A DNA stretch of 64,000 nucleotides from positions 1,247,520-1,311,519 of the forward strand of contig MU004193.1 of NCBI GenBank assembly GCA_010093605.1, written 5' to 3'. Made by a program: the position numbers and the translations under genes. This DNA comes from Lophium mytilinum. Lineage: Eukaryota; Ascomycota; Dothideomycetes; Mytilinidiales; Mytilinidiaceae. The notes under the pieces are model-generated. The model was not told the DNA's origin, made no database searches, and saw nothing but the letters and a program-made list of their open reading frames with translations. Within the stretch, counting starts at the first letter, position 1. Each line of letters opens with the position of its first letter. Below, one piece after another: positions 52,699 through 52,871 of the stretch.

Positions 52699-52823
52699 GC
52701 ACTGTTGGTCCAGCGGTAGGATTCTTGCCGTAAGAATTCCCCTACAGCAGCGTAATTTGTTCCCTCTTACTAATATACATTAGTTCCAAGCAAGAGGCTC
52801 GGGTTCGACTCCCGGACAGTGCA
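52699..52823 (+). tRNA. tRNA-Gly(UCC) with a non-canonical 54-nt intron
   Basis: Exon parts 52699-52729 and 52784-52823 give a 71-nt cloverleaf ending with the discriminator A. Acceptor strands GCACTGT and ACAGTGC pair perfectly. The D arm (GTCC/GGAT with AGCGGTA loop), the anticodon stem CTTGC/GCAAG, and the T arm with loop TTCGACT all form. Once the intron is removed the anticodon loop is CTTCCAA, with U33 and anticodon UCC, reading the glycine codon GGA. The A box (TGGTCCAGCGG) and B box (GGTTCGACTCC) are intact, and a T-run follows at 52858. The interruption lies between positions 32 and 33, not 37/38, and its ends are GTAAG and TTAG. Confidence 0.9.
52730..52783 (+). other. intron-like insert in the tRNA-Gly anticodon loop
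   Basis: 54 nt with the donor GTAAGA, a TACTAAT branch-like site at 52768-52774 and a TTAG end 10 nt after the branch A. Length and signals match the protein-gene introns of this window. GTAAGA (52730-52735) could also pair with TCTTAC (52765-52770) as a hairpin. The junctions are unambiguous: no shared bases allow sliding. Confidence 0.8.
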
Positions 52824-52857: not shown

Positions 52858-52871
52858 TTTTTTACATTTTT
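52858..52871 (+). terminator. RNA polymerase III T-run terminator
   Basis: Six T residues (52858-52863), followed by five more (52867-52871), lie 35 bases after the tRNA end. This is suitable as a Pol III terminator and backup. Confidence 0.65.

Follow-up and report, generated by a model that had tools for sequence, protein, structure and literature searches.

Putative spliceosomal introns in tRNA genes of Lophium mytilinum

The introns of tRNAs and mRNAs are taught as the substrates of separate systems, with an endonuclease and a ligase acting on the former and the spliceosome on the latter. In Schizosaccharomyces pombe, the U6 snRNA, a Pol III transcript, carries an mRNA-type intron that is removed by the spliceosome, and an engineered yeast tRNA precursor harboring a pre-mRNA intron was reportedly spliced via the mRNA route in about 1990. 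We know of no natural spliceosomal intron in tRNA genes, and no report of one in a nuclear tRNA gene appears among the literature matches listed, which comprise titles and abstract openings and leave most subscription papers outside their scope. Yeast excises a spliceosomal intron of lichen origin from RNA made by Pol I (PMC8527467). Among eukaryotes, a review of introns in tRNAs names nucleomorphs and a red alga as sources of non-canonical ones (PMC4090602); the word stem 'spliceosom' is absent from its main text.

Anatomy of the glycine tRNA locus

The genome surveyed here comprises 43.18 Mb in 24 contigs, and the window, that is, the whole stretch of 64,000 nucleotides that was analysed, lies in contig 13. 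One protein encoded in the window shares 94% identity across 89% of its length with a Mytilinidion resinicola protein, so that the fungus is probably a dothideomycete close to Mytilinidion. As the first-pass annotation had claimed, taking out nucleotides 52730-52783 of the window yields a complete tRNA-Gly(UCC) cloverleaf with both A and B boxes, and the segment taken out sits at tRNA position 32/33 rather than at the canonical nuclear position 37/38 served by the TSEN endonuclease. The features of the locus are as follows:

52699-52823, + strand: pre-tRNA-Gly(UCC), locus L001
52699..52729, + strand: tRNA-Gly(UCC) exon 1, tRNA positions 1-32 (ARAGORN, sequence)
52730..52783, + strand: putative 54-nt spliceosome-type intron at tRNA 32/33 (ARAGORN intron (32,54), blind parse, splice-signal score)
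52730..52735, + strand: candidate 5' splice site GTAAGA (sequence, signal scoring)
52766..52774, + strand: candidate branch region CTTACTAAT, containing TACTAAT, with the branch A 10 nt before the intron end
52780..52783, + strand: candidate 3' splice site TTAG (sequence, signal scoring)
52784..52823, + strand: tRNA-Gly(UCC) exon 2, positions 33-73, with the anticodon TCC at 52785-52787
52706..52716, + strand: A box TGGTCCAGCGG, 11/11 to a consensus taken from general knowledge
52802..52812, + strand: B box GGTTCGACTCC, 11/11 to a consensus taken from general knowledge
52858..52863, + strand: T-run, probable Pol III terminator, starting 35 nt past the tRNA 3' end

When introns are allowed, ARAGORN reports tRNA-Gly(tcc) with an intron (32,54) exactly at GTAAG...TTAG. 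The same boundaries emerge from a blind parse, in which a script scores the cloverleaf for each insert placement without knowledge of splice signals: across 1035 placements of 44-61 nt the best cloverleaf is reached by two, one of them GT..AG and the other shifted by one base, and no second placement yields an identical mature sequence. The initial GTAAG, the TACTAAT 10 nt from the end and the terminal TTAG noted at first reading are all in place, and the resemblance to nearby protein-gene introns proposed together with them holds as well, as the signals match those of the window's putative protein introns. The splice-signal score of 15.4 falls in the lower part of the protein-intron range and is matched by 1 of 20,000 random 53-nt segments from the window, and TTTT is absent within the pre-tRNA. 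The segment is very likely a natural U2-type GT-AG spliceosomal intron, whichever polymerase transcribes the gene.

As a 141-bp query the locus has a single match in the genome, in a search that skips very common words and from which a high-copy family could escape, and no copy of its intron occurs in the 337 kb compared, which leaves the first-pass idea of an introner-like element without support for the glycine intron. A tRNA pattern with up to three mismatches gave 10 matches, only the one at the window gene being a tRNA by eye, and this gene is the only tRNA-Gly(TCC) gene found in the genome. The standard ARAGORN run found nothing in the window and an Rfam search returned no tRNA at the locus, so tRNA annotation can miss such genes, and an apparent gap in the tRNA set of some fungi may be spurious.

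Further interrupted tRNA genes in the genome

A covariance search for tRNAs, with 63 of 1346 candidates scored, identified at least 42 places in the genome, the glycine gene not among them, and ARAGORN found an intron in most of the 30 places examined out of those 42. In addition, tRNA 3' halves were listed by patterns combining a B box and a T-run, most of the new ones were fetched, and a finder script paired acceptor and T stems and required an A box, relaxed in a second run, while using no splice signal. The T-run pattern yielded 140 sites, 136 of which were covered (88 + 44 + 4), the final 4 being among 8 that have GGTTCAA followed by G or T. Genes with a B box other than GGTTCRANYCC, or with a T-run more than ~40 nt away, are missed by these patterns, the glycine gene itself being such a case. 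We counted about 59 nuclear tRNA genes in all, namely 38 of the 42 covariance places and 21 others; left out of the 38 were C21:185038, C21:185779, C1:153899 and C16:243355, which are mitochondrial-looking, odd or partial. One region (L084, C21:184900-186100), in a 614-kb contig, holds tRNA sequence or sequences that by impression look mitochondrial.

An extra insert of 48-57 nt, distinct from the 37/38 intron, interrupts 13 of the genes, so that the first-pass proposal of a spliceosomal intron in a tRNA gene is now supported by like inserts in 12 further tRNA genes:

Gly-UCC, L001: insert at 32/33 (manual reading and ARAGORN)
Ser-GCU, L025: insert in the variable arm (manual reading)
Ser-AGA, L085, C5:1138891-1139021: insert at 52/53 (manual reading)
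Ile-AAU, L092: insert at 18/19 (manual reading)
Ile-AAU, L122: insert at 28/29 (manual reading)
Ile-UAU, L106: insert at 14/15 (manual reading)
Ala-CGC, L094: insert at 26/27 (manual reading)
Ala-UGC, L086: insert at 9/10 (manual reading)
Leu-AAG, L110: insert at 30/31 (manual reading)
Leu-CAA, L144: insert at 15/16 (manual reading)
Asp-GUC, three genes, L070, L118 and L128 on contigs C1, C8 and C13: insert in the variable loop (manual reading)

Three candidates with unconvincing cloverleaves (L090, L102 and L109) were dropped, as was L145 (C19:176490-176850), a tRNA-like gene whose 71-nt insert sits in the anticodon loop and lacks GT-AG ends despite a tRNA score of 48.9 bits.

The 13 loci are spread over eight contigs, and the twelve non-glycine inserts occupy ten positions, with 37/38 used by none of the 13. 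By manual reading, all genes other than Gly and the two Ser (10 of 13) contain an ordinary 37/38 intron too, and ARAGORN recovers a leftover anticodon-loop intron in 9 of these 10, Ile-AAU2 being the exception. With the insert removed, ARAGORN gives the expected isotype in 11 of 13 cases, while in Ile-AAU1 and Leu-AAG it shifts the remaining intron and names Asn and Val; with the insert kept, it finds 12 of the 13 genes and assigns the expected isotype to 7. Outside Gly, Ala-CGC and the three Asp, each of the remaining eight genes has 1-5 alternative placements with identical mature sequence. The blind parse ranks the claimed placement with the best cloverleaves in 12 of 13 genes; in 10 of these (Gly, both Ile-AAU, Ile-UAU, Ala-CGC, Ala-UGC, Leu-CAA and the three Asp) no other GT-AG placement shares the top. 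Leu-AAG is uninformative, as 396 of its 1521 placements tie, including three other GT-AG ones; Ser-AGA has no GT-AG among its top placements; and in Ser-GCU 16 placements outscore the claimed one with a scorer that has no long variable arm.

The splice signals used for scoring were learned from 20 of the 23 putative protein introns in the window, which derive from reading frames and some of which may be false; these score 14.7-22.7 on their own and 11.6-21.6 when left out one at a time (n=20). The 13 tRNA inserts score 13.5-22.6, inside or just below that range, and at most 2 of 20,000 random segments reach the score of any insert. Eight canonical tRNA introns score -29.9 to -4.9, a weak control in that most lack the length to hold a branch site. 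The inserts are also narrowly distributed in length (mean 53.0 nt, sd 2.7) and begin and end as GT-AG in 11 cases, GC-AG in one (GCAAGT) and GA-AG in one, or in nine, one and one if the three Asp are counted once (n=11); for the twelve non-glycine inserts the corresponding numbers are 10, 1 and 1. A CTNAY branch site with its A 10-13 nt from the intron end is found in 12 of the 13, and CTNAY in 11 of the twelve outside Gly; in Leu-CAA, which has the lowest score (13.5), TTAAT is the only branch candidate. The Ser-AGA insert has GA-AG ends in its best placement and GT-AG in none of four equivalent ones, together with a good branch site and 3' end, and would be either a GA-AG intron or one with a lost 5' site. 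The genome thus holds at least 13 such putative introns in its tRNA genes, with the Gly-UCC gene the only one found of its kind.

Internal promoter elements are largely preserved. The A box is intact in 10 of the 13 genes and altered in Ala-UGC, Ile-UAU and Leu-CAA; the B box is complete in all 13, because the genome patterns demanded one, and in Ser-AGA it is split by the intron and restored by the intron's last G. T-runs start 3-35 nt past the tRNA in the 13 genes, and TTTT occurs in none of the 13 pre-tRNAs vs 5 of the 23 putative protein introns, a contrast that is not strong. These elements bear on a variant of our preferred reading, in which the spliceosome acts on Pol II rather than Pol III transcripts of these genes. 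Pol II RNA is the spliceosome's normal substrate, but the A and B boxes and the T-runs fit Pol III, even if most of the genes were sought by their B box and T-run in the first place, and we regard the Pol II variant as improbable.

Five matches to U6 snRNA (L096, L097, L098, L064 and L039/L136, the last two being one place) each have a GGTTCGA B box downstream and span 100-103 nt with no sizable insert. Five other loci (L032, L035, L036, L099 and L130) show a downstream B box and T-run and no Rfam match at the cut-off, and are possible unnamed Pol III RNAs or repeats. L142 (C14:1601350-1601720) is a truncated tRNA, the terminal 22 nt of a tRNA-Leu(CAA) joined to protein-like sequence, and perhaps marks an integration or recombination site. 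A pattern for the 18S 3' end had no match in the genome.

Alternative routes, intact copies and origin

An alternative holds that TSEN cuts the inserts as non-canonical tRNA introns, like those of nucleomorphs, Cyanidioschyzon and Crenarchaeota, which lie at comparable positions (PMC4090602). This accounts neither for the GT-AG ends nor for a branch motif 10-13 nt from the intron end nor for the narrow range of 48-57 nt. In a count of bulge-helix-bulge pairs, the best insert forms at most 7 of 10 motif pairs (Gly 4 of 10) and the inserts do not rise above shuffles, but the count fails on seven canonical introns too, which likewise are not above shuffles, and so lacks discriminating power. Folding of six introns (Gly and five others) reveals no shared hairpin. 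The GTAAGA/TCTTAC hairpin of the glycine intron, put forward in the first-pass annotation as an opening for an endonuclease, is no more stable than expected, as 62 of 200 shuffles fold at least as well, and was rejected. With the glycine hairpin no stronger than chance and none shared, the endonuclease route gains nothing from it, and we consider TSEN cleavage of the inserts distinctly unlikely.

A search for uninterrupted copies speaks to whether the inserts are removed at all. BLAST with ten spliced tRNAs (E up to 10) returned 24 matches, all within the 13 interrupted genes. It may miss distant genes of the same isotype, since L029 (Ser-GCU), L009 (Leu-AAG) and L083 (Leu-CAA) went unmatched though present, and these three supply a second gene without the extra intron for their isotypes (anticodons of L029 and L083 read manually). 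Neither BLAST nor the pattern surveys turned up an uninterrupted copy of Gly-UCC, Asp, Ile-AAU, Ile-UAU, Ala-UGC, Ala-CGC or Ser-AGA. All three Asp genes found are interrupted, as are all three Ile genes (two AAU and one UAU), and Gly-UCC, Ala-UGC, Ala-CGC and Ser-AGA are each represented by a single gene that is interrupted. With no uninterrupted copies found, the inserts are very probably removed, to judge from the gene content, and the fungus could not read Asp or Ile codons without such removal, unless genes were missed. In IMG/VR, an Asp tRNA on one contig (L147) is continuous across the Asp junction (GGGAGACC); the IMG/VR viral contigs contain no Gly gene, and the patterns applied to them matched no Asp or Ile gene with an interruption.

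The same surveys weigh on the possibility that intact genes supply the tRNAs and that the interrupted ones are pseudogenes or relics of insertions. Genes free of the extra intron are indeed known for Ser-GCU, Leu-AAG and Leu-CAA, but none was recovered for the other isotypes, the exons build complete cloverleaves, and homologous introns are kept in three Asp copies; we rejected this reading, which seems very improbable. An assembly or sequencing artefact, conceivable given that a single assembly was used, is made extremely unlikely by the matching splice signals at thirteen loci on eight contigs.

The distribution of the putative spliceosomal introns offers some insight into their origin. Between the two Ile-AAU genes both the intron and its position differ, and intron gains were therefore probably repeated. 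The Ile-AAU1 and Ala-CGC introns have their first 15 nt in common (E about 0.01 in the DNA compared), which may reflect chance or kinship; a genome pattern search for that start with CTAAC and TATAG behind it matches Ala-CGC only. Among the Asp genes, the introns of Asp1 and Asp2 are identical (56/56) and that of Asp3 differs from both (45/58). The 60-nt flanks of Asp1 and Asp2 agree at 33/65 aligned positions upstream and 32/62 downstream, and their canonical introns have diverged too; the intron identity would stem from either gene conversion or intron transfer, and introns may still be moving between tRNA genes. Because the place where an intron entered a tRNA can be given to the exact nucleotide, or almost, intron gain becomes directly testable.

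Proposed processing and comparison with known systems

From the anatomy of the DNA, we infer Pol III transcription, spliceosomal removal and the order of these steps. Pol III would transcribe the glycine gene, directed by the A and B boxes inside it, the spliceosome would recognize GTAAGA, TACTAAT and TTAG and release the 54 nt as a lariat, and the joined RNA would fold as tRNA-Gly(UCC) and undergo the usual end-processing and modification. In 10 of the 13 genes, as read manually, the 37/38 endonuclease would also have to take out a second, ordinary intron. Precedents for spliceosomal removal from RNAs not made by Pol II make this mechanism plausible.

We propose that the spliceosome probably serves as an obligatory tRNA-processing enzyme in this fungus: introns would have colonized about eleven positions in tRNA genes transcribed by Pol III, all Asp and Ile, GGA and some Ala and Ser decoding would depend on mRNA splicing capacity, and several precursors would need both the spliceosome and the tRNA endonuclease. 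Both splicing systems seem to act on one tRNA precursor in nature. If so, short Pol III transcripts would be acceptable substrates of the spliceosome, even with only 9 nt of mature tRNA plus the leader preceding the intron in Ala-UGC, and spliceosomal introns would be able to invade genes thought closed to them.

The novelty would lie in the occurrence of a known intron type in a gene class without a known natural case. The S. pombe U6 example concerns one snRNA gene, whereas many tRNA genes are affected here, and the engineered yeast tRNA was an artificial construct, whereas the present genes are natural. The ectopic introns of lichen rDNA are likewise of the mRNA type and interrupt a gene for a non-coding RNA that Pol II does not transcribe, but they involve rRNA and Pol I in place of tRNA and Pol III (PMC8527467). 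The introns of nucleomorphs, Cyanidioschyzon and Crenarchaeota share with those described here a location outside 37/38 and, at times, the presence of several per gene; they differ in their endonuclease or unknown handling, and no GT-AG and branch signature is described for them in the portions of the sources at hand (PMC4090602, PMC3978253). Finally, the inserts resemble fungal U2-type protein-gene introns, as represented by the window's putative introns, in length, 5' site, CTNAY motif and its distance, and AG end, and differ from them in residing in tRNA genes with internal Pol III boxes.
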